Of a DNA stretch of 64,000 bases, positions 1-20,448 are shown one piece after another (position 1 is the stretch's first letter; each line of letters begins with the position of its first letter). A model generated the notes under the pieces. That model saw only the letters and a list, made by a program, of their open reading frames with translations, was not told the origin of the DNA and did not search any database. The translations under genes and the position numbers were made by a program. This DNA is from a virus: the IMG/VR virus record IMGVR_UViG_3300034684_000299, positions 1 to 64,000 of that record. The stretch is one strand, 5' to 3'.

Positions 1-401
1 TGTGAGTCTAACTTATGCTTAATAGAAGGTGCAAGCCAACCCTCTTTTTTAGAAGATACTCTATTGTTAAACTTAGGTTTTCTATATCTAAGCCTATTGC
101 GTCTAATTCTACGATACATCCTTCTTTCCTTGATAAGTTCAGATATATCGTTTCTTAGTTTAACTTCACCAGAGATTAGCTCCTTCTTTTCAGTTATAGC
201 TGAAAAACCTATATGGTTATACCCACTATCTATACCAAGTGTAATATCTTGTGTATAGGTAGTAGTATCATATAAAAGCTGAATAGTAAAAGGTTTAACT
301 TTAACCACTTTAGCAAGTCCTTGCTTAAGTAGTCTTCTAACTTTACCATGCCTATTAGTAGGCATTAAAGGTTTCCCATTAATAGATAGTACATATACCA
401 T
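1..401 (-). CDS. iscB: IscB RNA-guided endonuclease, copy 1, N-terminal part
   Basis: About 133 residues are visible; the rest is off the window. The ATG at 399-401 follows an AAAGGAGG ribosome binding site. The N-terminus carries an intact PLMP motif (GKPLMPTNR), then the RuvC-I strand LGIDSGYNHIGFSA with the catalytic Asp at about residue 60. An Arg-rich bridge-helix segment (RRMYRRIRRNRLRYRKPKF) and the family signature KEGWLAPSI follow. Family knowledge: IscB is the ancestor of Cas9 and uses an omega-RNA encoded just upstream to cut double-stranded DNA. Divergence from the other two copies implies separate acquisition or an old duplication. The HNH and RuvC-II/III parts cannot be judged here. 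Confidence 0.88.
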   Translation of the reverse strand, partial: MVYVLSINGKPLMPTNRHGKVRRLLKQGLAKVVKVKPFTIQLLYDTTTYTQDITLGIDSGYNHIGFSAITEKKELISGEVKLRNDISELIKERRMYRRIRRNRLRYRKPKFNNRVSSKKEGWLAPSIKHKLDS

Positions 402-666
402 TTAAACAACCTCCTTTAAAGGTAAGTCAGGCTAAAGCCTGTAAGTCCACATCGCCAATGTTACAGTAGGTTTTTCAGTAACAGCACTTCTCCTACCCAT
501 CAGAGATGTTTAACCATTACCCACAGAGCTTGGAACTTGTGGAGCATCCCAAGGTGTCTATATATTCTACTGTAACGTAGCTAAAAAGTAATCCTTTTAG
601 CTTAGGCTAATCAACCGAGCTTGTTTTTCTACAAGCCCCCACCTCTATAGGTGGTGGGTAGTTGAC
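402..666 (-). ncRNA. IscB omega-RNA, copy 1
   Basis: Non-coding region from the element left end to the iscB start, read on the minus strand. It begins GTCAACTACC and forms a CCACCT-ATAG-AGGTGG hairpin. A long-range stem joins TTACAGTAG with CTACTGTAA (perfect), and an internal stem pairs CCTTGG with TTCCAAG. A third stem pairs GTAATGG with CTGTTAC using two G-U pairs. The same stems occur with different bases in the other two copies (compensatory changes), which is strong evidence for a structured RNA. By analogy with known IscB systems, the guide is the flanking DNA just 5' of GTCAAC, here ending CTACAAACGTAATAGT, which is RCC1-gene sequence. Confidence 0.8.
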
Positions 667-1856
667 ACTATTACGTTTGTAGGAACACTTCTACTAGAAG
701 TAGGTCCAATTCCTAATTGCCCATAGAAATTATTCCCCCAAGTATACAATTTACCCGTTTCTGTTATTGCTGCTGAATGATGATCTGATATACTTATAGC
801 AACCACTTTTTCTCCACCAAACATATCTATCAAAATAGGATAATGTTTTGGAATAGTGGTTCCATCACCTAATTTTCCTTCGCTATTGCTTCCCCAAGTA
901 TATAACTCACCTGATTCAATTAATGCTGCAGAATGAGCCCATCCTAAACTTACATCTACTACTTTTTTTCCAGAAATTATACAAGTTGGAATATGTCTTT
1001 CATCAGTAGAGCCATTTCCTAATTGTCCATAATAATTGTACCCCCAAGTATACAATTTTCCTGATTCAGTTATCGCGGCGGAATGTTCTACACCCAAACT
1101 TACAGCAATTACTTTTTCCCCATTAAACCTATCTATTAATCTTGGCGTATGTTTCTCAACAGTAGTTCCATCGCCTAATTGTCCAAAGTCATTGTCACCC
1201 CAAGTATACAATTTTCCTGATTCTGTGATTGCCGAAGAATGCCCTGAACCCAAACTTACAGTTACTATTTTTTCTCCATTAAATCTATTTATCCATAAAG
1301 GAAAGCTTCTATCAATAGTAAGCCCATTACCTAATTGACCATAGTCATTTTCACCCCACATATATAATTTACCTGATTCTGTTATTGCCGCTGAAGTATA
1401 ACCTCCCAAACTTATAGCTATTACTTTTTCTCCATTAAAACTATCAATTAATGTTGGCGTAGTTCTATTGTATGTATTTCCATTGCCTAATTGTCCATGT
1501 TGATTGTGCCCCCAAGTATACAATTTGCCCGTTTCTGTTATTGCTGCTGAATGATCTTGCCCTAAATCCACAGCAATTACTTTTTCTCCATCAAAACTAT
1601 TTATTAATGTTGGAACATATTTATCAGCAGTAGTTCCATCACCTAATTGTCCATATTCATTGTCACCCCAGGTATATAAACTCCCAAATTCTGTTATCGC
1701 TGAGGAATAGCCAACTCCCATACTAATTTTTTGAAACTTTATTGTTGGTTCAGGATTAGAAGGCACAAGGAACTCTGTAATAGTACAAAAAGTTCTAACA
1801 TCTCTAGTTCTTTTCCCGTTTTTTAATTTAGCATTTAAATAATATATATCAGACAA
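645..1856 (-). CDS. RCC1-repeat seven-bladed propeller protein A, 3' end altered by IscB element
   Basis: About 403 residues. The TTG at 1854-1856 is preferred because AAAAGGAG lies 9 nt upstream; an in-frame TTG at 1883 has no such site. After about 50 residues come seven RCC1 repeats of about 52 residues (pattern SAAITESGKLYTWG..N..GQLGDGTT), enough for a complete beta-propeller. In this phage context a role in adsorption (fibre or receptor-binding protein) is likely but inferred. The last repeat ends NVIV and then runs into the left end of IscB copy 1, which supplies STTHHL and the stop. Proteins B and C instead continue into further C-terminal sequence, so the native end is probably lost. 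Confidence 0.8.
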   Translation of the reverse strand: MSDIYYLNAKLKNGKRTRDVRTFCTITEFLVPSNPEPTIKFQKISMGVGYSSAITEFGSLYTWGDNEYGQLGDGTTADKYVPTLINSFDGEKVIAVDLGQDHSAAITETGKLYTWGHNQHGQLGNGNTYNRTTPTLIDSFNGEKVIAISLGGYTSAAITESGKLYMWGENDYGQLGNGLTIDRSFPLWINRFNGEKIVTVSLGSGHSSAITESGKLYTWGDNDFGQLGDGTTVEKHTPRLIDRFNGEKVIAVSLGVEHSAAITESGKLYTWGYNYYGQLGNGSTDERHIPTCIISGKKVVDVSLGWAHSAALIESGELYTWGSNSEGKLGDGTTIPKHYPILIDMFGGEKVVAISISDHHSAAITETGKLYTWGNNFYGQLGIGPTSSRSVPTNVIVSTTHHL

Positions 1857-1857
1857 T

Positions 1858-3633
1858 TTAATCGACTCCTTTTGTTGTATCAATAACTTTGAGATAAATA
1901 GGTGGAAACTGAGGTATAAAACCTTTTTTATTACTTTTTAATATTATTTTATGATTAATTTTATTCTCTAAATCTTTCAAAGCTTCAGAAGGAGCGTTAA
2001 TATCTATCAATTGATTCAACTTTTGAAATCTAACGTCAAAAGTAAGTATTTCACCAGTTCGTAATTTGACTTTTAATAGCAATTTTTCAGATTCTATTCT
2101 AGAACATGGAATGAATGGAGCGACAAGATATTTAACCCCGGATCTGGGTTGCATACAGAATCTTAATGTTTCAATTCGTATAAAATTATAATAATACTTT
2201 TCAATTGGATTCTCAATTTTGATCCAATTATAGGCTTTATCAGTTTTTAAAAAGGTTGGTACACGTACATTAATCCAATTATATTTATACGAGAATGTTT
2301 TACGATTAATAGGTTTGTAAAATGAAATTATGAAATTAGTTGGCTTTATACTTAAATTACTGGATGTAACTTTAAGCTCATTTATTATACGTGAATAAAT
2401 GGATAGATTTTCCAAAGTAATCAACAGTTTGTTGAGTTCATGCTTGGTATGATTACTTGATATATTAGAAATTAAAAAGTTATAATTTTTTCTATCAAAA
2501 ATACTTTTGGATGCATTAATAAATAATAATTTTATAAATTCTTTATCAAAAGAAAGTGTTTGCAAATTTCGTAATGTTTCTCTGTGAATTGTAGTATTTA
2601 AATAAATTAAATCTCTTATAATATCAGCATAACCAATAGTATTTTCTAATATTATGTTTTTAAGAATAGAATTATTATAATCAGTATAATTCGTTGATAT
2701 TTTAGATATAGGAATAAAATTTTTAGTAAGTGAACTGAGAGACAAATAATTGAATATCTTACTCTCTTTTGTTTGAGTTGAAGACATTAAGTAATTTATT
2801 GTATTAAAATTAGACAAATAAGATGTATTAGAAATATAGTTTTTAACAATGTTTGTCGAGTTTTGATTATTTAAAATAAGAAAATTAGATACTTTTGGAT
2901 AATATAACTTTGTTTTTGGATAAATAATATGAGATACAGGTGCTTCTTGCATTCTGGTCAAAGTGAAATTCAAATTAGATACTTTTTCTTTCCTTTTAAT
3001 ATTTCTACTTTGAATATCTTTAGAAACTTGTATCCATTTTTCTAATTTTAACGTTGATAAAAACTTAAACCATCCTAAGATAGATTGTAAATCCATCATT
3101 TGCAAAATATCTTCGTCTCTTAACAAACCATAAGCATTTTCAAATAATTCATCGTATTGTTCAGAACTTCCTAAATCATATGAATTTCTGAAGTATTCGA
3201 AAAATATTCTTAATGCAGCTACACTTAAACTTGATATACTGTTCCCTATTTCAAACTCTCTTTCAACAGGTTCTACAATAGTTTCTGTTGGAGGTGGTAC
3301 ATATGGTTCCCCTGGTGTTGATCCTTCTATATATTGTGAAATATCCAATTTATCATAAACCCTAAAAATTTTTATCTCGCTTTGAGAGGACGGAATTATA
3401 TTGATATAATTTAAAAATTCATATGTATTATTCAAAGATAAATTAGAAAGTACATTTGCACCAGCTTCGGACAGATATCCCATTGACATTCGAATCCAAT
3501 TGTAAAATTCCGGATTATTGGGATCCGGAATTATAATATAATCTTTTGTTTTTAAATCAACAAAAGAAACAGCTTTTCTGTTGATTTTACTAATATTAAT
3601 TTGATTATTAATATTAATATAATTATATGGCAT
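1858..3633 (-). CDS. Phage tail-region protein, 591 aa, function unknown
   Basis: Not recognised. The ATG is preceded by AAAGGA at about 12 nt, and the stop lies 1 nt before the start of the next gene (1856). A Pro/Glu-rich linker (around residues 105-125, PYVPPPTETIVEPVE) separates a short N-terminal domain from an Asn/Ser-rich helical middle. A beta-rich C-terminal domain follows (about 500-591), with GVKYLVAPFIPCSR. A short motif recurs four times: FYNWIRM near residue 45, then YNWINV, YNWIKI and YNFIRI around 445-485. It sits between RCC1 proteins A and B, so it probably belongs to the same tail-tip or fibre assembly; this is inference only. Confidence 0.7.
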   Translation of the reverse strand: MPYNYININNQINISKINRKAVSFVDLKTKDYIIIPDPNNPEFYNWIRMSMGYLSEAGANVLSNLSLNNTYEFLNYINIIPSSQSEIKIFRVYDKLDISQYIEGSTPGEPYVPPPTETIVEPVEREFEIGNSISSLSVAALRIFFEYFRNSYDLGSSEQYDELFENAYGLLRDEDILQMMDLQSILGWFKFLSTLKLEKWIQVSKDIQSRNIKRKEKVSNLNFTLTRMQEAPVSHIIYPKTKLYYPKVSNFLILNNQNSTNIVKNYISNTSYLSNFNTINYLMSSTQTKESKIFNYLSLSSLTKNFIPISKISTNYTDYNNSILKNIILENTIGYADIIRDLIYLNTTIHRETLRNLQTLSFDKEFIKLLFINASKSIFDRKNYNFLISNISSNHTKHELNKLLITLENLSIYSRIINELKVTSSNLSIKPTNFIISFYKPINRKTFSYKYNWINVRVPTFLKTDKAYNWIKIENPIEKYYYNFIRIETLRFCMQPRSGVKYLVAPFIPCSRIESEKLLLKVKLRTGEILTFDVRFQKLNQLIDINAPSEALKDLENKINHKIILKSNKKGFIPQFPPIYLKVIDTTKGVD

Positions 3634-5318
3634 TAGATTATTATTCCTTTAATTATTAGTGAGGATAAATCTTCAGTTGGTACCGCTTGAGACGATAGAT
3701 TCTTTATATTCAACAATGGTGTTTCCCCATTAGCCTCCAATTGTTCTTGAATTAATATCTTGTGTTGTTTATAAAATGGGCAGTTAGCATTACAATTTGT
3801 TGTTTGAAATTCTGGACGTCCTTTTGCACAATAATGCAACAATGTATTATCATCATAAATATTGTATTCACAATGCCCATAGTATTTGTTTTCTAACATT
3901 TCTTCAATTCCTAATATTTTTTGCCCATTTCTTGCTTCCACTATTAGATATAAATCATTATCCTTTGTTATATCTGTATATTTAGCCATAACTTCAACAT
4001 CTATTCTTTTATCAGAAGATACCATAGTTGCATCAGGTGCTCCCATTAAAGCCATAGAATCAGAACCTATAAGGTTTCTAAATTCAAATATTCCTGGATC
4101 AACTGTGGTTACTACTAAAGTATGAAATCCACCTAAACATACTTGTGATGCTTTTTTATATCCGAATCTATCTATTAACGTAGGCACAGTTTTGTTTACA
4201 GTAGTACCATCACCTAATTGACCATAATTGTTTAGTCCCCACATATATAATTTGCCTGATTCCGTTATTGCTGAAGAATGACCATTATATGGGGATACAT
4301 TACCACCTCCTAAATTCACAGTTATTATTTTTTCACCGTTAAATTTATCAATTAAAGTAGGAACACTTTTATTTACAATAGTTCCATCACCTAATTGTCC
4401 GGCATTGTTATATCCCCATGTATATAATTTCCCTGTTTCTGTTATTGCTGATGAATGCAAAAATCCTAAATTAACTACTTTTATTTTTTCTCCATTAAAT
4501 CTATCAATTAAAGTAGGAACACTTTTATTTACAGTAGTTCCATCTCCTAATGCTCCACCATAATCATTTCTACCCCACGTATATAATTTACCGGATTCTG
4601 TTATTGCTGAAGAATGCCATCCACCTAAACTTACAGCAATAACTTTTTCTCCACCAAAATTATCTATTAATATAGGAACATGTTTTTCTACAGTAGTACC
4701 ATCACCTAATTGTCCTTTATCATTCAAACCCCAAGTATATAACTTACCTGATTCTGTTATTGCTGCTGAATGATAGTGCCCTAAACTTACTGATATTACT
4801 TTCTCTCCATTAAATTTATCTATCAAAGTTGGTGTAGTTCGATTGGTAGTAGTTCCGTCTCCTAATCTACCATTGCCATTAAATCCCCAAGTATATAACT
4901 TACCTGATTCTGTTATCATCGCCGAATGATATTCACCCAAACTGACTATTTTTGCCTTATCTTCTTTAAAACTGTATATTAATGTTGGTGTCGTTCTTTG
5001 AGTGGTAGTTCCATCGCCTAATTGCCCATAATTGTTATAACCCCAAGTATATAACTTACCTGTTTTGGTAACAATAGCAGAATGGTAAAAACCAGCTCCT
5101 AAATCTTCTATTTGTTCCCCTTCAAATATTTTTAATTCCACAGGATTACTTTTATTGGCAGTAGTTCCATCTCCCAATTCTCCGTGTACATTGTATCCCC
5201 AGCTATATGTTGTATTAAAAATAATATTTCCTTCAACACTCAAAATTTCTTTTGGCCCAATCAAAAATGCAAAAGGTTCAACAGGGAACGCTTTGTTTTC
5301 AGCTATAATTTTATTCAA
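3633..5318 (-). CDS. RCC1-repeat propeller protein B with C-terminal cysteine module
   Basis: 561 residues. Residues about 35-410 hold seven RCC1 repeats. The propeller appears closed by a strand after the last one (HTLVVTTVD). Residues about 420-561 form a separate domain containing HCEYNIYDDNT, YCA, CNANC and PFYK, a four-cysteine pattern that could bind a metal. The same pattern is found in the 335-aa protein encoded at 9579-10586. The start is uncertain: TTG at 5316-5318 lies about 30 nt from the nearest AAGGA-like site. It overlaps the next gene by 1 nt. A fibre or receptor-binding role is inferred from context. Confidence 0.78.
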   Translation of the reverse strand: MNKIIAENKAFPVEPFAFLIGPKEILSVEGNIIFNTTYSWGYNVHGELGDGTTANKSNPVELKIFEGEQIEDLGAGFYHSAIVTKTGKLYTWGYNNYGQLGDGTTTQRTTPTLIYSFKEDKAKIVSLGEYHSAMITESGKLYTWGFNGNGRLGDGTTTNRTTPTLIDKFNGEKVISVSLGHYHSAAITESGKLYTWGLNDKGQLGDGTTVEKHVPILIDNFGGEKVIAVSLGGWHSSAITESGKLYTWGRNDYGGALGDGTTVNKSVPTLIDRFNGEKIKVVNLGFLHSSAITETGKLYTWGYNNAGQLGDGTIVNKSVPTLIDKFNGEKIITVNLGGGNVSPYNGHSSAITESGKLYMWGLNNYGQLGDGTTVNKTVPTLIDRFGYKKASQVCLGGFHTLVVTTVDPGIFEFRNLIGSDSMALMGAPDATMVSSDKRIDVEVMAKYTDITKDNDLYLIVEARNGQKILGIEEMLENKYYGHCEYNIYDDNTLLHYCAKGRPEFQTTNCNANCPFYKQHKILIQEQLEANGETPLLNIKNLSSQAVPTEDLSSLIIKGIII

Positions 5319-5355
5319 TCTGAGTGTATTCGTGGTTTTTCACCATCCTTGTAAA

Positions 5356-7266
5356 TTAATCAAAATCCACAATTATTCGTCCACTTAAATTACTCTTAGT
5401 CTGATCTATTCGTTTGATTGTTAATGGAACAGATGTTTGATTTCTATTAGGTAGTTTAACGTATCCTTCCGCTTTGGAATATTCTAACCAAAACTGTTCT
5501 ACGGTAGTTTCATTGTTACCAACGATGATTTTGTCGTTAATCCCTATATTACTGATTGTCTTTAAAAGTACCAGTTTTCCAGGGAAACGCCATTGTTTTA
5601 CTTTCAATTCTCTTGTAGTAGAATCGTATTCCAAAACAATAGGTCTATCGTATCTGTAATATTCTATATAATCCCCTATCTTATAACGATTAACATCGTA
5701 AGGTTGTAAAAGGTTTATTTGAGATACAGCAACCATTTCAGGTGTACTTTCAACAACTTCTTCTAAAATATCTGTATGTGGTTTGATAGTAGCAGGAGCT
5801 AATTCAATATAATAATACGTATTTGTAGAATCATCTAATACTTTGATGGCCTCTTTCTTTCTATCTACATTAAAATCTACTTTTACCATACTTTCCATAT
5901 TTATCACATGGAAATTAACATCGTTGAGATTAAATCGTCCCCAGTCAATTTTGATATTGTTGTTACTATCTTTTTGCACTTTATACATAAAGTTGTTTCT
6001 AATTCGTAAGTTATCACTTAATTCGTCAACAAATAACTTATTTAAATTCATATAATATATCATACTGTAATTTGAAGCTATGATTTTTAATTTAAATTTT
6101 ATATTTGAAGTTATTACTTTTTTTGTAGTTATTTTATGTATTAAACTTCCATCTTCATTATACATATAAAATAGTTGGTACCCGGAATAAATATAAGCAT
6201 CTAAGATAATTGTTTCCGTTGGTAAAGGATCATAAATATATCTATCAAAGATTTTGCTTGTACTACCTGTTGAATCTTTTTCAAAGGTTAAATTTATAGA
6301 ATCAATTAAAGTACCTGTGCTATCCAAAAATTCTAATATATACTTTGAATTAGCGATTCCGGGTGTCAATTTAAATGCTGTTCTAAATCTAAATGGCAGA
6401 GAATACAAATTAGTAGTTTGTATATAATAATTTGAATCTGCAATATTAGAATTGTTAACTACAAGATTGTTCCCATCAGAGATATATAAACCATTAGCAG
6501 AAGTAATATCCCAATTGGTTAAATCTTTAAAATCATCGTTTAAAACTGAGGTTTTTGTAGTGGATAATGTTGACACAACGGTTTGACCATATTGCATTTC
6601 AATTTTATCTTCAGGTACTAAATCCAAAAAATCTATGGAGAATTTTGCTGTTGGTTTTGAAGAGCTTGGAACTAATAAATTAGTATATTCAAAATTATTT
6701 ATTACGGTATTTGGTTCTACATTCAAACCAAGATTATTTTTAACGTTAATTCCTTTAGTTAATACTCTGCCTTCAGGTGTTTGAACTACAACATGGTAAT
6801 TGCCACACGAAATTGAAGAAAATTTGCCTATTTTAGTGAATGTTTTTATACTTTCTTCTTCTATATCAGGCCATAATCGAGCAACAGGATTGTTGTATCC
6901 TGTTCCCCATACATTATCATCTTTATCGTATATAAACAAATTGTATTTATCTAATTGGTATCTAACAATGTGAGCAATAGGGGGAACAATAAACTGTTGT
7001 AATGTTGAAATAGGTAGTTCATCTCCAGTATTTAAGATACCATGTTCATTGTTACCCATAATCCAGATAGTATTACCTGTTTTAAATATTATTATATTTC
7101 CACCATTACATTGAAAATCAGAAACGTTAGTAATGAAAACTGTAGGAGTAGTATCACCATAATTCCATATATATAAAGTTCCATCTTCATTTAAAGAAAC
7201 ATATTTATCTTGAAACTTATCTAATTTAATTATATTAGTAAATTCAGTATAATTAATCAATGGCAT
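5356..7266 (-). CDS. Tail-region protein with degenerate RCC1-like N-terminus, 636 aa
   Basis: The N-terminal about 200 residues show weak RCC1-like strands (SLNEDGTLYIWN, GNTIWIMGNNEHGIL, NVWGTGYNN), much decayed compared with proteins A-C. The middle (about 230-420) is predicted beta-rich, possibly a jelly-roll or concanavalin-like module (DWGRFNL, FRFRTAFKLTPG). The C-terminus (about 480-636) has small beta modules. ATG at 7264-7266 follows AGTAGGTG. It lies between propeller genes B and C in the same operon, so a structural role in the same fibre complex is likely. No enzyme motif is seen. Confidence 0.68.
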   Translation of the reverse strand: MPLINYTEFTNIIKLDKFQDKYVSLNEDGTLYIWNYGDTTPTVFITNVSDFQCNGGNIIIFKTGNTIWIMGNNEHGILNTGDELPISTLQQFIVPPIAHIVRYQLDKYNLFIYDKDDNVWGTGYNNPVARLWPDIEEESIKTFTKIGKFSSISCGNYHVVVQTPEGRVLTKGINVKNNLGLNVEPNTVINNFEYTNLLVPSSSKPTAKFSIDFLDLVPEDKIEMQYGQTVVSTLSTTKTSVLNDDFKDLTNWDITSANGLYISDGNNLVVNNSNIADSNYYIQTTNLYSLPFRFRTAFKLTPGIANSKYILEFLDSTGTLIDSINLTFEKDSTGSTSKIFDRYIYDPLPTETIILDAYIYSGYQLFYMYNEDGSLIHKITTKKVITSNIKFKLKIIASNYSMIYYMNLNKLFVDELSDNLRIRNNFMYKVQKDSNNNIKIDWGRFNLNDVNFHVINMESMVKVDFNVDRKKEAIKVLDDSTNTYYYIELAPATIKPHTDILEEVVESTPEMVAVSQINLLQPYDVNRYKIGDYIEYYRYDRPIVLEYDSTTRELKVKQWRFPGKLVLLKTISNIGINDKIIVGNNETTVEQFWLEYSKAEGYVKLPNRNQTSVPLTIKRIDQTKSNLSGRIIVDFD

Positions 7267-7274
7267 AAAAACAC

Positions 7275-8711
7275 CTACTTATATATTGGTGTTAAATCAA
7301 CATGAATTAAGGTTTGAGTCGTTTTTGTAGTAGTCATATTATTAACAGGTAATTGTATTGTTTCATTACCAAAACTTGTAGAAGAAATTAATGTAGGAAC
7401 TGTTTTGTTGGCAGTAGTTCCATCGCCTAATTGACCATTGCCATTCAAACCCCAAGTATATAATTTGCCTGATTCCGTTATTGCTGAGGAATGTCTATCT
7501 CCTAAACTTACAGCTATTACTTTTTCGCCATCGAAATTATCTATTAATATTGGTGTTGCCCTATTTGTAGTAGTTCCATCACCTAATCTACCATCACCAT
7601 TATAACCCCAAGTATATAATTTACCTGTCTCTGTTATTGCTGCTGAATGATAGTATCCTAAACTAACAGCAATTACTTTTTCTCCATTAAATCTATCTAT
7701 TAATGTAGGAACTGTTTTGTTGGCAGTAGTTCCATCGCCTAATTGACCATTGCCATTCAAACCCCACGTATATAATTTGCCTGATTCTGTTACCGCTGAA
7801 GAATGATACCATCCTAAACTAACAGCTATTATTTTTTCTCCATTAAATCTATTTATTAACGTAGGAATTGTTTTGTTGGCAGTAGTCCCATCACCTAGTT
7901 GCCCCGCATCGTTCAAACCCCAAGTATATAGTTTGCCTGATTCTGTTATCGCTGAAGAATGATATCTTCCTAAACTTACAGATATTACTTTTTCGTCATT
8001 AAACTTATCTATCAAAGTTGGTGTAGTTCTAGTAGTAGTAGTTCCATCACCTAATTGCCCAAAATTATTGTATCCCCATGTATATAATTTGCCTGATTCC
8101 GTTATTGCTGAGGAATGTCTATCTCCTAAACTTACAGCTATTACTTTTTCGCCATCGAAATTATCTATTAATATTGGTGTTGCCCTATTTGTAGTAGTTC
8201 CATCACCTAATCTACCATCACCATTATAACCCCAAGTATATAATTTACCTGTCTCTGTTATTGCTGCTGAATGATAGTATCCTAAACTAACAGCTATTAC
8301 TTTTTCGCCATTAAATCTATCTATTAATGTAGGAACTGTTTTGTTGGCAGTAGTTCCATCGCCTAATTCTCCATGAAAATTATATCCCCACGTATATAAT
8401 TTGCCTGATTCTGTTATTGCTGAAGAATGAGAGGAACCTGCTCCTATAGTATAATTCTCACCAAATCTTGACATTAGTACATACGAATCTATTTGATCAT
8501 TAAAAAATTTTATTTTTAAATTGTATGTTCCAGCCACTCTATTTTGTAATCTTACCCTTATTTTCCCTGTTACAGGGTCAAAATCAAAAGGTATAGGATT
8601 GTTTAAATCGTCGTATATTTTAAAATTACATCTTTTTCTTCCTAAACTATCGTATCCCATGACGGCAGGATTGAATGTTGCACCATCAGGAATGAATATC
8701 TCTGTACCCAT
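7275..8711 (-). CDS. RCC1-repeat propeller protein C
   Basis: 478 residues. A short beta domain (1-85, PVTGKIRVRLQNRVAGTYNLKIKF) precedes seven RCC1 repeats, and a tail of about 25 residues ends it. The start follows TTAGGAGG at about 9 nt. At DNA level blade 6 with its flanks is an almost exact copy of blade 2 with its flanks (see the repeat entries), so blades have been copied recently within the gene. As with A and B, a surface or receptor-binding role is inferred from position in the tail operon and from the fold, which commonly mediates protein binding. Confidence 0.8.
   Translation of the reverse strand: MGTEIFIPDGATFNPAVMGYDSLGRKRCNFKIYDDLNNPIPFDFDPVTGKIRVRLQNRVAGTYNLKIKFFNDQIDSYVLMSRFGENYTIGAGSSHSSAITESGKLYTWGYNFHGELGDGTTANKTVPTLIDRFNGEKVIAVSLGYYHSAAITETGKLYTWGYNGDGRLGDGTTTNRATPILIDNFDGEKVIAVSLGDRHSSAITESGKLYTWGYNNFGQLGDGTTTTRTTPTLIDKFNDEKVISVSLGRYHSSAITESGKLYTWGLNDAGQLGDGTTANKTIPTLINRFNGEKIIAVSLGWYHSSAVTESGKLYTWGLNGNGQLGDGTTANKTVPTLIDRFNGEKVIAVSLGYYHSAAITETGKLYTWGYNGDGRLGDGTTTNRATPILIDNFDGEKVIAVSLGDRHSSAITESGKLYTWGLNGNGQLGDGTTANKTVPTLISSTSFGNETIQLPVNNMTTTKTTQTLIHVDLTPIYK
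7457..7744 (-). repeat. RCC1 blade duplication, unit 1
   Basis: About 288 bp nearly identical to 8081-8368, with only about two mismatches seen by eye. The offset is 624 bp, exactly four 156-bp (52-codon) blades. It encodes blade 6 and parts of blades 5 and 7. Confidence 0.85.
8081..8368 (-). repeat. RCC1 blade duplication, unit 2
   Basis: Partner of 7457-7744, encoding blade 2 and parts of blades 1 and 3. Near-identity in an otherwise diverged repeat array indicates recent gene conversion or unequal recombination. Confidence 0.85.
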
Positions 8712-8724
8712 TATTTTTTTCCTC

Positions 8725-9475: not shown

Positions 9476-9581
9476 TTATCCTGCTTTGAAAGGTTCTAAT
9501 GTGACATCTACATATACTTCTGTACCTGTTTCAGATTGAATACCAGCTAAATCCAAAATTATTTCATAACCTGCAAAATCA
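9476..9581 (-). pseudogene. Out-of-frame 3' extension of the 335-aa gene
   Basis: After the TGA at 9579-9581 the +1 frame stays open to TAA at 9476-9478. It encodes about 37 residues (KFDFAGYEIILDLAG ... VYVDVTLEPFKAG) that resemble the C-terminal strands of the next gene. Removing one A from the AAAA run just before the TGA would fuse the two parts. It is either a frameshift mutation, a sequencing error in a homopolymer, or recoding. Confidence 0.5.
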
Positions 9582-10586
9582 AATTTTGCTACTATCTCCT
9601 ATTCCCCAAAGATTATTTTGATTATCAATTACATAAGTCACATCATTATCCACTATTATTCTATTTTTAATAGTATATATATCTGGAGTTGAAACGGATA
9701 ATTCGTTATCACTTTTTTTAAATTTAATATTGTTGAATGTATCAGACATTTCATCTCTTTTAGATATCAATACATCTAATTTAGAATTTTGAGTTGAATA
9801 ATAATTATCGAGGTAAATATCTTCCTCATATACAGGAGCATTGGCTACCGATTCTGAGACTATCTTTATTATAGGAGAAGTAAGATTGTTTATTTTATTT
9901 AATATCAGAAAAAAGTCCTTAGTTAAATCAAGCGACATATTGCTATTAAAAGAACTACTGTTTTCTAAAAAACCAGTATTTGTTAAAGCAGTAGTATCTT
10001 GTAAAACAGTTTTATCTTCAGATAAATTCAATACTTGCGGATCAATAGATTCAGAAGGAGTATAACTATCGTATACATTGAGATACGTACCATATAAAAC
10101 AGCTAATTCGCTTGAAAAACTTGAATTCAAAGAATCAATTAAATAAGTTTTTTCGTTTTTAAAAAATGGACAATTTTCATTACATAGTTCTGTCTTATAA
10201 TATTGAACATTCATAGCACAATACATAGTACCAGTGTTTCCATCATAGATATTGTATATACAATGGGGATAATTTTTGTCATCTTCTACTAATAATCCTT
10301 TAATTATGCCTTCGCCTGTTAGAAATCCATAATTTTCATTTGGTGTTTGTATCCACAATCGCTCATAAAAACTTGAAGGTATTCTAGGATCTTTCAAAGA
10401 AACAACAACGGGAGTATTATCTATTAGTTTTAAAGCTTCTAATCCGACTAAGTTTTTTTCAAAAAAAACCCCAGCGAATTCACCGGGGTCGCTGTTCATC
10501 ATATGAAACTCATCACTAAATTCTTCTATATCTATTTCAACTGTATCCATTGGTACTATGAGTTTATTCAAAGTATTGAAAAACAT
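9579..10586 (-). CDS. Tail-region protein with cysteine module, 335 aa
   Basis: Function not recognised. Residues about 95-150 contain HCIYNIYDGNT, YCA, CNENC and PFFK, the same cysteine pattern as propeller protein B. The C-terminus (NNLWGIGDSS) looks like the start of an RCC1 strand and stops early, with a likely frameshift (see 9476-9581). ATG at 10584-10586 has no Shine-Dalgarno sequence, because the right end of IscB element 2 lies only about 3 nt upstream. Joining the two flanks of the element would restore GGAAGG about 11 nt before this ATG. Expression is therefore probably reduced by the insertion. Confidence 0.65.
   Translation of the reverse strand: MFFNTLNKLIVPMDTVEIDIEEFSDEFHMMNSDPGEFAGVFFEKNLVGLEALKLIDNTPVVVSLKDPRIPSSFYERLWIQTPNENYGFLTGEGIIKGLLVEDDKNYPHCIYNIYDGNTGTMYCAMNVQYYKTELCNENCPFFKNEKTYLIDSLNSSFSSELAVLYGTYLNVYDSYTPSESIDPQVLNLSEDKTVLQDTTALTNTGFLENSSSFNSNMSLDLTKDFFLILNKINNLTSPIIKIVSESVANAPVYEEDIYLDNYYSTQNSKLDVLISKRDEMSDTFNNIKFKKSDNELSVSTPDIYTIKNRIIVDNDVTYVIDNQNNLWGIGDSSKI
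10461..10488 (-). terminator. Intrinsic-terminator-like palindrome inside the 335-aa gene
   Basis: On the minus strand a 20-nt self-complementary stretch (CCCCGGTG ... CGCTGGGG, with G-U pairs) is directly followed by eight T. It lies in sense orientation inside the coding region, about 100 nt after the start. It would be a good Rho-independent terminator unless translation masks it. Confidence 0.5.
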
Positions 10587-10593
10587 AACAAAA

Positions 10594-10635
10594 TCTGCAG
10601 GTAACTCGCCATTTCAATGGTGAGAGGAATGCAGA
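10594..10635 (-). repeat. Right-end hairpin of IscB element 2
   Basis: Outer stem TCTGCA/TGCAGA encloses an inner stem CTCACCATT-GAA-ATGGCGAG (minus strand), with the IS200/IS605-like ATTCCTC segment on one arm. It matches the layout of the copy 3 right end. Confidence 0.7.
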
Positions 10636-10648
10636 ACTTCGCCTCCTT

Positions 10649-11941
10649 TTAAGATATTTTGTATCCATAACCGTCATTCCTTTGTAGTAATGTGAGATAT
10701 TTTGGATGTACATTACCGACACCATTTAATAAAAAGCTTGGGCTATGCCGTATTACAATTCTTCCAGTATGGATACCTTTATTTTTCCCTTTTGGTACTT
10801 TTGCTAATACTATATCGCCTGTTTTGTATCCCATATATGTTCGTTCTTTTGGGCGATAACTCTTTGGAAACCCATATTTATCCACAAAACACATTCTACG
10901 CATTCCATGTCCCATTGCTTTAATTTCTAAAACTTTCATATCTGGTTCGAGTTGAACGTTTTGGCCACTTTCTCCAACACAAGCTGCATCTATCCAATGT
11001 TCTTTTGGATACCCTTGTGTTTCACGATTGTATTTTGTCTGTCCTCCAGTTCCTACTTCGATAGGCAATCTTTCTTTCTTTAGTTGGTTAAACAGATACC
11101 AACGTGTTGCGTTGACTGCTGCTGTATCTTTGAGTGGCTTCTTTGATTCTGATTTAATTTGGTTCAGCCTTTCTGGATTATTGGCCAGAAATTCTTCGAT
11201 AGATTGATTACCTTTCTTCTGATTGCATTCGTGGCAAGCTAATGTTAGGTTACTTATTCTGTCACTTCCACCTTTAGATTTTGGTACGATATGTTCTATT
11301 TCTAATGGTATATTCTCTTTACCACAATATACACATTTCCTACCCCATTTCTCAAGGAGATACTCTTTTATTTCGTATCCATACAATGTTCCACGTTGAT
11401 ACTCTATTCCCTTAATTTCTGGATTTTGTAGTTTTTGAGTGTCAAAACGGACTAACTCCATTGAAATACCTGTAATTGGAGAAAAACGTCGAATACGTTT
11501 AATCCATGTGAGTATATTTTCTACACGACTTATAAGACTAGGTGGCAGCCAACCCTCTTTTCTCTTCCTATTCAAGAATCGTGGTTGCCTATATCTTGTC
11601 TTTCTGTTTCTGCGTGAACGTCTTACAGCTCTACGAGTATCTAAATTCTTCTTGATTACATATCCTCGGTGATGAATTACTGATGCCCAAATAACTTTCT
11701 TACCACGTTTAAAATCTGCTACTAAAGCGACTCCAGTATATTTACTGCCAGGATCGATCTTAACCTGTATTGGTTGAGTATCTCCACCTTCACGATCTTT
11801 CAGAATAATTGTGAATGGATGGTATCGAAATACTGCTGCTTTCCCTTTCTTCAATAACTCTCTTGCTCTTGCTGGATGGCAAGGCATTAATTGTTTCTTA
11901 TTCTTATCTAACACAAAAACTCGTTGTGCTGTTTTTCCCAT
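10649..11941 (-). CDS. iscB: IscB RNA-guided endonuclease, copy 2
   Basis: 430 residues, a normal IscB length. Visible in order: the PLMP domain (QLMPCHPARARELLKKGKA, residues 17-35) and RuvC-I (VKIDPGSKYTGVAL, catalytic D63). Then come the Arg-rich bridge helix (RRAVRRSRRNRKTRYRQPRF), RuvC-II (GISMELVRFDTQ, Glu), and an HNH domain (CVYCGKENIPLEIEHIVPKSKGG ... CHECNQKKGN). RuvC-III is HWIDAACVG with its Asp, and a TAM-side C-terminal domain has GYKTGDIVLAKVPKGKNKG. All catalytic residues are intact, so it is probably active. It would use the omega-RNA just upstream to cut double-stranded DNA. The ATG follows GGAGAGGAAGG. Function follows from the family; activity in this phage is inferred. 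Confidence 0.95.
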   Translation of the reverse strand: MGKTAQRVFVLDKNKKQLMPCHPARARELLKKGKAAVFRYHPFTIILKDREGGDTQPIQVKIDPGSKYTGVALVADFKRGKKVIWASVIHHRGYVIKKNLDTRRAVRRSRRNRKTRYRQPRFLNRKRKEGWLPPSLISRVENILTWIKRIRRFSPITGISMELVRFDTQKLQNPEIKGIEYQRGTLYGYEIKEYLLEKWGRKCVYCGKENIPLEIEHIVPKSKGGSDRISNLTLACHECNQKKGNQSIEEFLANNPERLNQIKSESKKPLKDTAAVNATRWYLFNQLKKERLPIEVGTGGQTKYNRETQGYPKEHWIDAACVGESGQNVQLEPDMKVLEIKAMGHGMRRMCFVDKYGFPKSYRPKERTYMGYKTGDIVLAKVPKGKNKGIHTGRIVIRHSPSFLLNGVGNVHPKYLTLLQRNDGYGYKIS

Positions 11942-12187
11942 GGAAGTTACCTTCCTCTCCTTTTCGGGTTAAAGTGAGCCTCGCCAATGTTATTCTAGCT
12001 TTTTACGTTCAACACACTGGTTTCAACCCCGTATACCTGTTTAATGTTGAACGACAGGGCTTGGAACTGGCTCCAGTATTCCAAGGTGTCATGACCAGAA
12101 TAACGTAGCCCGATAGCTTTTCAGCCCTGGCTGAGGCTGGTCAACTCCGAGGCTTCAAGCCTCCGTCTTTAGACGGGGGTTGTTGAC
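11942..12187 (-). ncRNA. IscB omega-RNA, copy 2
   Basis: Starts GTCAACAACCCCCGTC with hairpin CCGTC-TAAA-GACGG, then GAGGCTTGAAGCCTC. The long-range stem is TTATTCTGG with CTAGAATAA, and the internal stem is CGTTCAACA with TGTTGAACG. A further hairpin is CCTTGGAA ... TTCCAAG, and a conserved ATTAAACAGGT lies in the loop region. The base pairs differ from copies 1 and 3 but pairing is kept. The predicted guide is the 3' end of the neighbouring 1365-aa gene, ending GGCGGAAGGTTTAGATA. Confidence 0.85.
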
Positions 12188-15100
12188 TATCTAAACCTTC
12201 CGCCAATGTATTTTAATAAATTTTCTGTAGGTATCTCCGTTAAGATCACCAAATCATCTAACAACAAATATCCTTGTGTATTGTTTCCTAGTTTCAATGA
12301 ATGTGCCACATCAGGAGGTAAACTTATTGTCTCATAACTTAATGTATGAGGATGCAAAAATTGAACGTTATCAGCGTTGATTTTCAACACTATATTCTGG
12401 AAATTGAGTGTATTTAATTTTATAAATTCTTCTTTACTACTCAAAATTAAGTTTCCATCTATGTCTACTTCCAATATCTTTTGCCCATCTATAGTTATCA
12501 AATCTGATATAGCAGATATATCTTTTTCTAACAAATTAGCTGTTGGGAAATCAACGTCATCGTTTGGATCGTCGTATTCTAATATAATAGATAAACCTCT
12601 CATCTGTTGGATAGTGAGTTGATAATTGAAGAACATGAATTCTGATAACAATTCTGTTAAAGTAGACCAAGCAGGAGTAGCTAAATCAAATACATTTCCT
12701 CCATAAGCTATTAATTCAGTACCATTCAATGTCATTGTATTTCCTACATTGTTTAAAAACGCTGCTATAGATGTTTCACCATCTAATACCGTATAAATAT
12801 TGTTCATAGTAGGATCATAATATAAACCTATAGACCTTACTTTATAATGATTATCAAATTCAAATGGATGTGCGTTTTCAGAAAAACTTGCTACACCACT
12901 TAATTCAGTTTGTACATAACATTTAAAACCAGTACTAGTTGAATTGAATTTGATCTTATCGGATAAACTAAACAATGTATATTCTGTAGTATCCGTAGTT
13001 TTATGATAAGTACCTGTATTGGCAAAAATAGTGAATGTGTTTGCAGTTCCTAATTCATTGACAGCAAATTTTACATTGTGTAGATTAGCTCTTATTAATT
13101 CTGTACTCCCTTTGTAAGGGAAAGAAAGTACATTTATACCATCTTTGTAATAATTGTAGGATACTTTAGGATTGACATAGACTTTAGGAGATTTGGTTAA
13201 ATCCAATGTATATGCCGCGTCATATTGTATAGTAAAAAATAATTCAGTATTGGCTGAAGCAAATACAAATGGACTGTTTGGATGGTTCAAATTCACTAAC
13301 CATTTTGCATATTTTTTATCTGGATCGTAAGCTAAAAGAATAACGTCCAATGTATTATCGTCTCTAACAAACTTTATATTGTTTATATCTCTTGTTGCCA
13401 AAACTGTTTGATCCCAGTTCACAGCAGTTATTTCAACAGGTACCCAAAACTCTCCAGTATCACCATGTCTATCTTGAAGAAATCTTAGTTTGTATATTTG
13501 TCTATCTCCACCTAAACCAGTACCAACAAAATCTAATATCATTGTAGAACTTACTGGAACCTCATCAACATTCAAAATATTGTTATCTATTCTTACTCCT
13601 TTTTGATCGTATATAGGAGCTAAAGCTGTGCTTGCTGTAAATAACGAGTTTTCACTGGTTAAAGAATGTTCAAATTTAAATCTATCAGAAGTATCGGTAT
13701 TTAAAAAGGTTATACTGTTTGTTTCGTCGCTGAGATATTTTAATGAATTATACCCTGTATTCAAAACAGCGTTTGGTACATAGATCTTTGTTTCATCAAA
13801 CCATTTTACTACTTTAGCAGATATATTTGTTCCATTTAAACTCATTAGAATGGAACGTTCAGTATCGTTAAATCCTTGCATAGTATGTAAACTATTTATA
13901 TTCAAAAGCATATCAACGGTTGCTGTACTATCGGTTTCATTGTAAATAGACCAACTGATATCGTTATAATTTTTAAACTCTCTGACTATCTTTATGCTAT
14001 CTGTTTGTACACCTTGATTCTCAATTACTTGTCCATCTTTAACAAATACCACTTCATTATACAGTTTTGCTATATTAGGATTCAAAGTTAATTCTTCTAA
14101 TGTATCTATATATCCATTAGTGAGAAAATCTGTTACCATCGAGTATGGTACATGTATTTCTACTATATTGTTAATAACCTCTCTGGTTATCTCAGTAGTA
14201 GAATCAAAATAAATTATTGAGTCATAGAGAATTGTAAAATAGCCATTACTAGTAGAAGAATAATATCTATTTTGTAAATTTACTTGTTTGCTTAATAATC
14301 CATCAGTACGATCATATCTTGCTTTTACCAATGAATTGTTTAGATTTAAATAAAAACTATATACACCCCCCGAACCATAAAACCCTAATGATGTATATAC
14401 AGTTACAAGGCAATTATAAACATTACGCGTTCCCACTAGTCGGGGAGTAGTAAGTCCAGTATGCACAATAACCGTATTAGGGATCAAAGCATACAAATTC
14501 GTCGGTAAAGTATTTAAATCAGGTTGAATATATTTTCCCGGCAACATAATAACATTAGGACCAACAGTATTTGCTTTTGATATAGTCTTGAATGGTTTTT
14601 CGATTGTTCCATCTCCGTAAGTATCATCACCATCAAATCCATCTACATATACAATAGTTCCTTCCCATGTTGACCTTATCTCAGGATCTATATCTAAATT
14701 AGGAATATAAACAGCTTTAGTGTTTTTTGGTGCAAAATAATTTTCTGCATAATAAGGATTGTCTAATTCATCTTTTACATATACTTCATCAGCTGCTCCT
14801 TTATCAATACTTTGTATTTTAATAGGTTCTTGTAAAATAATAGGTTCAGATTCTATAGTATAATTACCTTCATATACGCTATGAGCAAAATATAAATTCA
14901 GTGTATAATCAGTACCTTGTTTATTTTTTCCAACAAAATAAACGGTGTTATTTAAAACATTCAATATATACATATCATCAAATGTAAAATCTGAAGTCAA
15001 TATAGTATTACTATCAATGTCCCCTTTAATAACTGTACTTAATGCTTCTTTTTGCCCATTTTCTATTGCCACAACTTGAACATCAGTCTCTTCAAATAAA

Positions 15101-16284
15101 TATTTTGGCACTGTTATATTAGGTAAGATTTTATAACCATCTGCTGTAATCCTAACATATTTAAGCTTATTTTCCGCAACTGCTAATAGCAAATCAATGT
15201 TATTTCCATCATTATTAGCATATCTTATTGTAGAACCTTCGATAATTGATGTTGCAGTATAATTTATAGCAACTCCCGATATACTTCCTGTTATAGAAGA
15301 ATTGTTTATTGTAACTGAATTTGAAGCGTCTAATGTTATAGTTTTACCATTTATAACGTTGTATGGAAATCTAGCAAATACTGCTTGTGAAGAAGAATAA
15401 GTAAAATTTGGAACGAATGAAATACTCAAACCATTAGGATACCAGTTTTGCATTAGCGAATCATATTCATATATTAAATAATTATCCTCGGCATAAAATT
15501 TTGAACTATCCCCAGCTATATTATTTGAAAAAGAAGATATTAAATCTGTATACGTTTTTGACATTGGGTCATAAATAAAACTTCTTGTTTTGTCTATTAT
15601 CATTATTTCAGTATCTGTGTTAGCTATTATTGGATCGTCATAAACGTTATCTTCGGAAGTCCAAGAAACAGGAATAATTTCTGAAGAATTAATAAATAAT
15701 TGATAAGCAATTGGTTTAGGTAAATTATTATTATCGTAATAAATGTTAGGATCATTATATATTTCTTTTTCTTTTGTTACTGATAATTCCATTCCTCCAA
15801 TTTCATTTGAATTCAAAGCTATACTATCATCAAACACTAATTCTATGGTTTGGGTTTTAAAAGGTATTTCAAATATCAATGCTGATACGCCATTTTTTAA
15901 AATACCATCCACTAATACTCTAGCATTACTTCCCCATTGAAAGTAAGTTTGGGCTGAAGTATTGGGAATTGCAGTGTCTAAATACATATAATCAATGTAC
16001 AATCCATTGCTGGTGGGAACGTCAAAAAAAGCTCCAGGCAAATTTGTTATTGTATCAGTTCTTATATATCGCGTTATAAAATCTGTTCTGTTGTAAAAAA
16101 TAGGTACACCATCAGCCAGAACATTTTTTAAGTGAGGATAAACCAAATCTGATATCATTATCTTAGCAAAACCAGATAAAAATGTATTTGGTAAATTATA
16201 CTTTACTATTTGATCAGCTATTGTTCTTGAGTTTACAGCAATTGTTTTATATGGATGAACGTATGGTAAGTGTTTGATTTGCAT
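12187..16284 (-). CDS. Large tail/fibre protein with beta-helix segment, 1365 aa
   Basis: Beta-rich throughout. Around residues 545-580 it has the phage DUF1565/pectate-lyase-like opening YVDGFDGDDTYGDGTIEKPFKTI...ANTV ... IMLPGKY, typical of right-handed beta-helix fibre proteins. The region around 1060-1280 looks concanavalin/LamG-like (KVRSIGLYYDPTMNNIYTVLDG, ATPAWSTLTELLSEFMFFNYQLT). The ATG at 16282-16284 is preceded by AAGGAGG separated by a hairpin (see 16285-16324). Its stop is formed at the junction with IscB element 2. Likely a baseplate-attached fibre or spike; specificity unknown. Confidence 0.75.
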   Translation of the reverse strand: MQIKHLPYVHPYKTIAVNSRTIADQIVKYNLPNTFLSGFAKIMISDLVYPHLKNVLADGVPIFYNRTDFITRYIRTDTITNLPGAFFDVPTSNGLYIDYMYLDTAIPNTSAQTYFQWGSNARVLVDGILKNGVSALIFEIPFKTQTIELVFDDSIALNSNEIGGMELSVTKEKEIYNDPNIYYDNNNLPKPIAYQLFINSSEIIPVSWTSEDNVYDDPIIANTDTEIMIIDKTRSFIYDPMSKTYTDLISSFSNNIAGDSSKFYAEDNYLIYEYDSLMQNWYPNGLSISFVPNFTYSSSQAVFARFPYNVINGKTITLDASNSVTINNSSITGSISGVAINYTATSIIEGSTIRYANNDGNNIDLLLAVAENKLKYVRITADGYKILPNITVPKYLFEETDVQVVAIENGQKEALSTVIKGDIDSNTILTSDFTFDDMYILNVLNNTVYFVGKNKQGTDYTLNLYFAHSVYEGNYTIESEPIILQEPIKIQSIDKGAADEVYVKDELDNPYYAENYFAPKNTKAVYIPNLDIDPEIRSTWEGTIVYVDGFDGDDTYGDGTIEKPFKTISKANTVGPNVIMLPGKYIQPDLNTLPTNLYALIPNTVIVHTGLTTPRLVGTRNVYNCLVTVYTSLGFYGSGGVYSFYLNLNNSLVKARYDRTDGLLSKQVNLQNRYYSSTSNGYFTILYDSIIYFDSTTEITREVINNIVEIHVPYSMVTDFLTNGYIDTLEELTLNPNIAKLYNEVVFVKDGQVIENQGVQTDSIKIVREFKNYNDISWSIYNETDSTATVDMLLNINSLHTMQGFNDTERSILMSLNGTNISAKVVKWFDETKIYVPNAVLNTGYNSLKYLSDETNSITFLNTDTSDRFKFEHSLTSENSLFTASTALAPIYDQKGVRIDNNILNVDEVPVSSTMILDFVGTGLGGDRQIYKLRFLQDRHGDTGEFWVPVEITAVNWDQTVLATRDINNIKFVRDDNTLDVILLAYDPDKKYAKWLVNLNHPNSPFVFASANTELFFTIQYDAAYTLDLTKSPKVYVNPKVSYNYYKDGINVLSFPYKGSTELIRANLHNVKFAVNELGTANTFTIFANTGTYHKTTDTTEYTLFSLSDKIKFNSTSTGFKCYVQTELSGVASFSENAHPFEFDNHYKVRSIGLYYDPTMNNIYTVLDGETSIAAFLNNVGNTMTLNGTELIAYGGNVFDLATPAWSTLTELLSEFMFFNYQLTIQQMRGLSIILEYDDPNDDVDFPTANLLEKDISAISDLITIDGQKILEVDIDGNLILSSKEEFIKLNTLNFQNIVLKINADNVQFLHPHTLSYETISLPPDVAHSLKLGNNTQGYLLLDDLVILTEIPTENLLKYIGGRFR

Positions 16285-16324: not shown

Positions 16325-16333
16325 CGAAAAGAA

Positions 16334-16561: not shown

Positions 16562-16573
16562 TTAATTACCTCC

Positions 16574-17548: not shown

Positions 17549-17573
17549 TTTTTATATGCCTCCAAATATTGTG

Positions 17574-17599
17574 TTGCCTTTAGCTTAATGGTAGTTGAC
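17574..17599 (-). repeat. Possible left-end scar of a fourth IscB-type element
   Basis: Minus strand GTCAACTACC, five bases, then GCTAAAG. This matches the left end of copy 3 (GTCAACTACC, five bases, GCTAAAG) in sequence and spacing. It lies 1 nt after a TGA stop and before the next ribosome binding site, the same kind of place where copies 2 and 3 are inserted. No omega-RNA body or iscB follows. Confidence 0.5.
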
Positions 17600-17600
17600 T

Positions 17601-18209: not shown

Positions 18210-18219
18210 ATTATTGATT

Positions 18220-18855: not shown

Positions 18856-18873
18856 TAAATTTTCACAAATTCT

Positions 18874-18918
18874 TACGCAAGGAAGCCACTGGCTTTAGCC
18901 ACGTGGAGGAATTGCGTA
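18874..18918 (-). repeat. Right-end hairpin of IscB element 3
   Basis: Outer stem TACGCAA/TTGCGTA encloses CCACGTGGCTAAAGCCAGTGG, which folds as TGGC-TTTA-GCCA extended by CCAC/GTGG. The arms ATTCCTCC and GGCTTCCTTGC are typical of IS200/IS605-type right ends. Confidence 0.8.
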
Positions 18919-18929
18919 TTTTAAACACG

Positions 18930-20210
18930 CTACGTAAGAATTGCTACCTCCTTTCTATAACTATACCCATCAAAGCGTTGTACAACTGAAAAATATTTAT
19001 GATTTACACCTTGTACAACTCTTTGACCTTCCTTGTTTTTAATATCAAAATATCCACTGTTTCTACAAGTAACTTCTCCATACCATATGCCTTTATATTT
19101 TCCTTTTGGTATTTCAGCTTTAACCATATCTCCTGTTTGAAAGCCAAAGAAATATTTTTGTCTTGCTAAATATCCTCTCTGAAAGCCGTATTTATCTAAA
19201 TTTGTTCTACAATGACTACCTCTACCTTTTGCTTTTATATACAAAACATCTTTTGTCTTAAAATATAATTTATCTGGTGTACTTTGACCTACACAACAAG
19301 CATCAAAGTAATGTTCTTTTGGCAATCCTAATTTGATTCTATTCATTTTAGTCAAAGCACCTGTACCACATTCTACTTCTAGTCCACTATTACAAAGTAT
19401 ATCATAAACTTTCCATCTTGTAGAATTAACTACAGAAGTATCCTTTAATGTTTGTTTAACTTGTTTTTGTATATCAGGATAACCAAATTCTTCTGCTGTC
19501 ATATTACCTTTCTTCTGGTTGCACTCATGGCAAGCTAAGCAGAGATTATCAATTCTGTTTGTTCCACCCCTTGATTTTGGTATTATATGTTCTACTTCTA
19601 ATGGAATGTTTTCTTTTCCACAATAACAACATTTTCTACCAAACTTTTCAAGTAAATATTCCTTAACTTCATATCCTTGTAAAGTACCTTGTTGATACTC
19701 TATACCACTATTTTCAGGATTTCTCATTAATTGAGTGTCGAATTTAACATTTTCATAAGATATGTGAGTTAATGGAATTAATTTTTGTAACCTATTAACC
19801 CATGTTTTTATATTATTAACTCTACTTTCAAGTGAAGGTGGTATCCAACCCTCTATTTTTCTTCTGTTCAAAAATCTTGGTTTTCTATATCTCGTCTTTC
19901 TATTTCTTCTGTTGTGTCTATACATACGCCTTGCATCAAGTTTCTTTTTAATATCTGTTCTATGGTCTATTTGTCCCAACCATATTACATTATTATTTTG
20001 TAATATGGCTAATCCCGTATGTTTACTACCATAATCAATTTTTAATCTATATTCTTGTTTATTATCAGTGTCATCTACTGCTTTTTTAAGGATTATTGTA
20101 AATGGGTATTTTCTAAATATTGCGGCCTTACCTTGTTTAAGCAATTTTCTTGCAACTGCTTCATGACAAGGTGATAATGGTTTTCTATTAATATCTAATA
20201 CAAATACCAT
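18930..20210 (-). CDS. iscB: IscB RNA-guided endonuclease, copy 3
   Basis: 426 residues, colinear with copy 2 but clearly diverged. The PLMP region reads KPLSPCHEAVARKLLKQGKA. RuvC-I is LKIDYGSKHTGLAI (Asp), and the bridge helix is ARRMYRHNRRNRKTRYRKPRF. RuvC-II is THISYENVKFDTQ (Glu), HNH is CCYCGKENIPLEVEHIIPKSRGG ... CHECNQKKGN, and RuvC-III is HYFDACCVGQS. Active-site residues are all present. The ATG follows AAAGGAG. The last codons overlap the right-end structure. Base composition is close to that of the phage (A/T-rich third positions), unlike the more GC-rich copy 2, suggesting that copies 2 and 3 were acquired at different times. Confidence 0.95.
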   Translation of the reverse strand: MVFVLDINRKPLSPCHEAVARKLLKQGKAAIFRKYPFTIILKKAVDDTDNKQEYRLKIDYGSKHTGLAILQNNNVIWLGQIDHRTDIKKKLDARRMYRHNRRNRKTRYRKPRFLNRRKIEGWIPPSLESRVNNIKTWVNRLQKLIPLTHISYENVKFDTQLMRNPENSGIEYQQGTLQGYEVKEYLLEKFGRKCCYCGKENIPLEVEHIIPKSRGGTNRIDNLCLACHECNQKKGNMTAEEFGYPDIQKQVKQTLKDTSVVNSTRWKVYDILCNSGLEVECGTGALTKMNRIKLGLPKEHYFDACCVGQSTPDKLYFKTKDVLYIKAKGRGSHCRTNLDKYGFQRGYLARQKYFFGFQTGDMVKAEIPKGKYKGIWYGEVTCRNSGYFDIKNKEGQRVVQGVNHKYFSVVQRFDGYSYRKEVAILT

Positions 20211-20448
20211 AGAAATTTCTCCTTTCTCTGCTTACGCAGGTAACATCTCCCTCGGCAATGTTATCTATGTTTACACGTATAGCACACTGGCTTAACCCAC
20301 TACACCTGTTTAATGCTATACGACAGAGCCTAGAACTAGGAGGGCATCCTAGGGTGTCATGACATAGATAACGTAGGTTCTGTTTCAAACCTTAGCCTGG
20401 TCAACATAGGGCTATCAAGCCCACGGCTTTAGCCGTTGGGTAGTTGAC
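20211..20448 (-). ncRNA. IscB omega-RNA, copy 3
   Basis: Begins GTCAACTACC with hairpin ACGGC-TAAA-GCCGT, then GGGCTTGATAGCCC. The long-range stem is TTATCTATG with CATAGATAA, and the internal stem is CGTATAGCA with TGCTATACG. A further hairpin is CCTAGGA ... TTCTAGG, and ATTAAACAGGT is conserved. Compared with copies 1 and 2 the stems keep pairing with different bases. The predicted guide is the flank ending TTTTTTTAATTGAG. Confidence 0.85.

Follow-up and report, generated by a model that had tools for sequence, protein, structure and literature searches.

The phage record IMGVR_UViG_3300034684_000299 (185,437 bases, called G hereafter) carries several IscB elements, in which the gene of an RNA-guided nuclease (IscB, related to the ancestor of Cas9) follows the omega-RNA that guides it. 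The window, i.e., the whole stretch of DNA analysed here, is the first 64 kb of this record. The copies in G are best read as IscB elements of the IS200/IS605 type of insertion sequence (IS), also known as ISC, HEARO, or OMEGA elements, that have probably spread among co-infecting phages by RNA-guided cutting. The element class itself is already known.

Six omega-RNAs, their nucleases, and their insertion sites

Six full-length omega-RNAs (HEARO in Rfam) are found in the entire record (E1 to E6, Table 1). Three IscB/omega-RNA loci, all on the minus strand and within 20 kb of the window, had been described in an earlier note made from the letters alone. All three are confirmed by Rfam (148-161 bits, E <= 6e-31) and by an iscB open reading frame (ORF) after each, and the earlier count understated the number in the record. 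Across the record, four HEAROs are accompanied by iscB (E1 to E4, with the omega-RNA directly upstream of the ORF), one is solitary (E5), and one is followed by tnpB (E6). Among 16 other viral records with IscB, 15 have one HEARO and one has two. The load of six in G is exceptional, the comparison records being shorter.

The iscB at the window's edge is partial, as the earlier note had it, because the end of the contig cuts E1. The truncation is one of assembly: the C-terminal part lies at the opposite end of the record, and both record ends thus fall within E1. Therefore the genome is probably nearly complete and circularly permuted. In E6, a tnpB element is inserted at the position expected for the start codon of iscB. 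E6 (record 151340-153004, plus strand) is thus bounded on one side by an IscB-type omega-RNA and on the other by TnpB and the omega-RNA belonging to it, and the guides of these two types are directed at opposite flanks.

The omega-RNAs share a fold in which 36 of the 54 predicted pairs have two-sided compensatory changes among 14 aligned sequences. The Pfam domain RRXRR is found in the IscB proteins of E1, E2, and E3, and HNH also in the complete copies E2 and E3 (domains and residues of E1 were judged on its N- and C-terminal parts only). These proteins match solved IscB structures. The catalytic residues of OgeuIscB are D61, E193, H247, H340, and D343 (PMC9640706). Equivalent residues are retained at the aligned positions, and RuvC-I D, RuvC-II E, HNH H/N, and RuvC-III H/D are all kept in E2, E3, and E4, whose proteins have PLMP, RuvC, and HNH. 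The nucleases thus look intact. The ratio of nonsynonymous to synonymous substitution rates (dN/dS) is 0.12-0.16 for E3 against its relative in contig L054, for E2 against those in L065 and L085, and for the available parts of E1 against E4. Such ratios indicate that the iscB genes are under purifying selection, which is not proof of cutting.

GTCAAC, with which the omega-RNA scaffold begins, stands at the start of every copy. The right end is a hairpin, followed by ATGA in E1 and E4, GTGA in E3, and ATGT in E2, i.e., mostly by RTGA. The end of E3 was fixed by comparison with a 92% identical element in L054, an unrelated viral contig, where identity runs up to GTGA and the sequences diverge beyond. 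The end of E2 was fixed in the same manner by a relative in L085. All six elements are oriented like the neighbouring genes and are inserted either in intergenic positions or at a stop codon, with E1 and E2 located exactly at stop codons. When the guide-source flank of E1 is joined to the right flank ATGA, the stop of an RCC1 gene is restored. In E2, the upstream gene obtains the last base of its stop codon from the first G of the element, and the right flank opens with the ATG of the next gene.

A syntenic relative, G2 (IMGVR_UViG_3300035529_000070; 183,532 nucleotides (nt)), has about 69% nucleotide identity with G. Uninterrupted versions of the sites, for which the earlier note proposed a search, exist there: the sites of E1, E2, and E3 are all empty in G2, and the joined flanks of E2 give the same overlapping stop-start as in G2. 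With defined ends, empty sites, and the same element at unrelated sites, these copies fit the IS200/IS605 type of transposable element. The only HEARO of G2 is found at 67952-68161 with about 10 codons of iscB remaining, at a place where G is empty, and no iscB was found in G2 by tblastn. Elements therefore come and go in this lineage, E1 to E3 being absent from G2 and the HEARO of G2 from G. Compared with G2, the gene at window 9579-10586 (minus strand) seems to be shifted in frame near its 3' end, and its missing tail is read on in a different frame.

Signs of possible homing in cultured phages

In a tblastn search with the E3 protein, 56 of 50,697 phage records match, most of them over the HNH part alone; in 13, the match covers 80% or more of the E3 protein. 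In Silviavirus, a group of cultured Staphylococcus phages, an IscB-HEARO element exists before a RusA-like resolvase gene in 7 records, and the site is empty in at least 43. The RNA of this element is a distant HEARO (32.5 bits, under the Rfam cut-off). The guide source of phage VL10 matches the empty alleles of Romulus, SA11, LSA2308, and Koomba-kaat_1 at 16 of 16 bases. Beyond the element, the carriers have a further copy of the start of the resolvase gene, in which a serine codon is changed from AGT to TCG. The recoded start has three mismatches to the guide and looks like a protected target.

The carriers belong to two backgrounds. At 4-fold sites, these differ at 51 of 332 positions in the genes of the left flank and at 5 of 121 in IscB (Fisher P=0.001). 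At this fixed site the element is thus younger than the sequence around it, as homing predicts. To the right of the element, the haplotype of the CIFT carriers is different in the first 255 bases alone (9 differences). A co-conversion tract initially seemed clear here; it is weakened by Koomba-kaat_1, which shares the haplotype, and is not established. There is a breakpoint at the Silviavirus insertion, and the same right haplotype occurs in an empty phage. In principle, these comparisons give independent backing to RNA-guided homing of phage IscB elements into empty alleles, the general idea behind the earlier note.

Another IscB element is found in Nodularia phage kac68v162 (L094; 3792-5305), as a clean insertion within tnpB of an IS607 element. 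Phage kac68v161 has the same tnpB uninterrupted, at 99.8-100% identity. The guide of kac68v162 was considered as a match to the empty site and rejected: about 17 nt separate the junction from the RNA start, and there is no match on that reading.

Table 1. Positions of the IscB elements and their parts in G (window coordinates unless marked as record)
Feature	Position	Strand	Remarks
E1, part inside the window	1..666	-	omega-RNA and N-terminal part of iscB; remainder at far end of record
E1 omega-RNA (HEARO, RF02033)	441..666	-	Rfam 157.7 bits; covariation
E1 iscB, N-terminal 133 codons	3..401	-	ORF cut by window edge
E1 iscB, C-terminal part	record 185437..~185208	-	~0.7 kb missing between both parts
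E1 guide source, left flank GTTCCTACAAACGTAATAGT	667..686	-	final codons of RCC1 gene
E2	10587..12187	-	end confirmed by 88% identical copy, L085
E2 omega-RNA (HEARO)	11969..12187	-	Rfam 147.7 bits
E2 iscB, 430 amino acids	10649..11941	-	RuvC/HNH residues intact
E2 terminal hairpin, IS200/605-type end	10590..10635	-	
E2 guide source ATTGGCGGAAGGTTTAGATA	12188..12207	-	
E3, right flank GTGA	18867..20448	-	ends confirmed by 92% identical element, unrelated contig L054
E3 omega-RNA (HEARO)	20240..20448	-	Rfam 161.1 bits
E3 iscB, 426 amino acids	18930..20210	-	RuvC/HNH residues intact
E3 terminal hairpin	18867..18917	-	resembles IS605 left-end hairpin, 0/500 shuffles
E3 guide source TTTTGATTTTTTTAATTGAG	20449..20468	-	
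E4 HEARO, complete iscB	record 103006-103234	+	Rfam
E5 HEARO, without iscB	record 131324-131548	+	Rfam
E6 HEARO, then tnpB element	record 151340-151549	+	Rfam

Proposed movement of the elements and alternative explanations

In the proposed explanation, the guide of each omega-RNA would be taken from the flank left of the element. The IscB-RNA complex would therefore match the guide sequence followed by RTGA, i.e., the uninserted allele, and not its own interrupted copy. The elements may be moved in trans by the TnpA of an IS605 element, or by the TnpA of the host or of another phage. By cutting empty alleles, IscB would restore the element after its excision, and repair of such breaks would copy it into co-infecting relatives. 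Because of this copying by break repair, nearby tail genes would be inherited together with the element and no special design is needed; marker exclusion of tail genes is possibly a by-product of homing. For G itself, RNA-guided homing is our best guess.

One TnpA is encoded by G itself. It was noted earlier that there is no TnpA, which is true within the 20 kb but not for the record, where IS605 encodes a Y1 TnpA (107052-107468) and TnpB (107480-108640). The insertions could thus also stem from transposition by this TnpA, a route that the earlier note had dismissed. Likeness to the left end of IS605 is seen in the end hairpins of E1, E3, and the G2 HEARO, and likeness to its right end at the 5' ends of the omega-RNAs in E3, E4, and E5. 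None of 500 shuffles, which preserved base composition only, reached the score in any of these comparisons; the G2 hairpin scores 57, while its best shuffle scores 27. It is reasonable to infer from these likenesses that the IS605 TnpA mobilises IscB elements in trans. Two 260-base derivatives, 98.8% identical to each other (record 95646-95905, plus strand, and 116528-116787, minus strand), consist of the left end and the omega-RNA end of the TnpB element in E6. They are possibly trans-acting guides for TnpB.

As for guide targets at other places, none with fewer than two mismatches is found in G or G2 except for E6, whose guide has one single-mismatch match in each genome. Several observations weigh against RNA-guided homing in G. 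The earlier note expected the empty sites of relatives to match the guides. This is not the case in G2, the only relative available: at its empty sites, none of the guides has an intact target or a usable match. It is reported for OgeuIscB that mismatches at positions 1-14, proximal to the target-adjacent motif (TAM), abolish cleavage (PMC9640706). Therefore, with the mismatches present, cutting of the G2 alleles is not expected. Closer empty alleles of E1, E2, and E3 did not appear in junction-pattern scans of IMG/VR; these and protein scans returned only G2 and one 99.998% identical fragment. G and G2 have no element at a common site, so homing is not visible in the lineage. In addition, the right flank of E2 (ATGT) fits neither RTGA nor the NNRR motif of OgeuIscB, and its terminal hairpin is unlike IS605 (110 of 500 shuffles reach its score). 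The tract on the right flank of the CIFT carriers in Silviavirus is also present in Koomba-kaat_1, an empty phage.

The copies could instead be ordinary IS elements that came from bacterial hosts or from other phages through transposition by TnpA. IscB would then only keep an excised element from being lost within a single genome and have no role between phages. This explanation is the strongest of the alternatives, and we consider it somewhat unlikely. It is favoured by the TnpA and the matching ends within G, and by relatives of the elements that are inserted elsewhere in unrelated viral contigs. Close relatives also exist in bacteria: the IscB of E3 is nearer to those of Anoxybacillus (about 75%) and of a metagenome-assembled genome (MAG) contig (90%) than to that of E2 (about 53-55%). 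With E1 and E4 about 80% identical to each other, E2, E3, and E1/E4 form separate lineages and would therefore have entered separately. However, phage genomes are present in many copies and recombine, so that empty sister copies would be exposed to the same activity as well. Independent transposition also hardly explains why the Silviavirus element is found at one site in two backgrounds. HEARO is matched four times in one MAG (L084, L085), which has E2-like and E3-like IscB at 88-90% identity; its E2-like copy adjoins a gene related to a gene of G (34% identity).

RNA-guided homing may also be extended to a single shared system. In that case, the solitary omega-RNAs (E5, E6, and the remnant of G2-like relatives) would be used in trans by the IscB proteins of the complete elements. 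Many sites would thus be guarded by a few nucleases, which would also attack several loci of co-infecting relatives at once and gain targets with each TnpA-driven insertion. We regard this extension as speculative and unlikely.

It is very improbable that the elements form a marker-exclusion device selected for dragging host-range genes (tail and RCC1) along, the special role proposed in the earlier note. The three elements of the window do flank RCC1 and tail-like genes, and their sites are empty in a relative. The RCC1 propellers named in the earlier note are confirmed, while its tail fibres are only weakly supported (one PHROG tail match, 12187-16284, E 2e-6). However, three of six elements within 20 kb are expected by chance under random placement (P=0.42), the other three are found elsewhere, distant from tail genes, and no element at a site common to G and G2 is available for comparison. 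The RCC1 genes (window 678-8440, minus strand) have common internal repeat blocks, one pair being 93.9% identical over 394 bases, which suggests recent recombination among them. Least probable of all is that the elements are decaying remnants without function: E5 lacks iscB, the iscB of E6 is replaced by a tnpB element, and the sole HEARO of G2 retains about 10 iscB codons, but E2, E3, and E4 are complete with every catalytic residue, and the low dN/dS extends to E2, E3, and the E1/E4 pair.

Comparison with known mobile nucleases

The elements of G share with other IscB/ISC elements of the IS200/IS605 superfamily (HEARO, OMEGA) an omega-RNA upstream of iscB, a protein with RRXRR and HNH, a guide from the left flank, hairpin ends, and insertion before a short motif. 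They differ from typical ones in that one phage has at least six HEAROs, tnpA is on a separate IS605, and some omega-RNAs are solitary. It is reported that over 16% of HEARO fragments are viral or derived from prophages (PMC9755519); therefore the location in a phage is itself not new. In the gene drive of TnpB in plasmids with IS200/605 (PMC11870625), too, the insertion site sets the guide and the nuclease cuts copies without the element. That drive involves TnpB on plasmids and was experimentally shown, whereas the proposal for G involves IscB and co-infecting phages and is inferred.

Phage homing endonucleases, known from competition and interference between phages in co-infections (e.g., gp210 of PhiPA3, PMC11620839, and the homing endonuclease genes of ICP1, PMC10448857), resemble these elements in that the nuclease gene exists in or beside its target, relatives with empty sites exist, and spread is expected via break repair. 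Their target is fixed by the protein, while that of an IscB element is chosen by RNA and re-set with each new insertion. G also has a homing element of another kind: its 2611-amino-acid fused RNA polymerase beta/beta' (window 37684-45519, plus strand) is interrupted in the Rpb1 active-site region by a LAGLIDADG intein. No report of IscB homing between phages was found in the literature searched, which covers few subscription journals, and this absence does not establish novelty.

Homing endonucleases shape phage genomes, yet each is bound to a single site read by protein. An RNA-guided nuclease that resets its target with each insertion could invade any gene junction. The Silviavirus carriers, together with their empty relatives, provide a cultured system in which homing of IscB elements can be tested directly.

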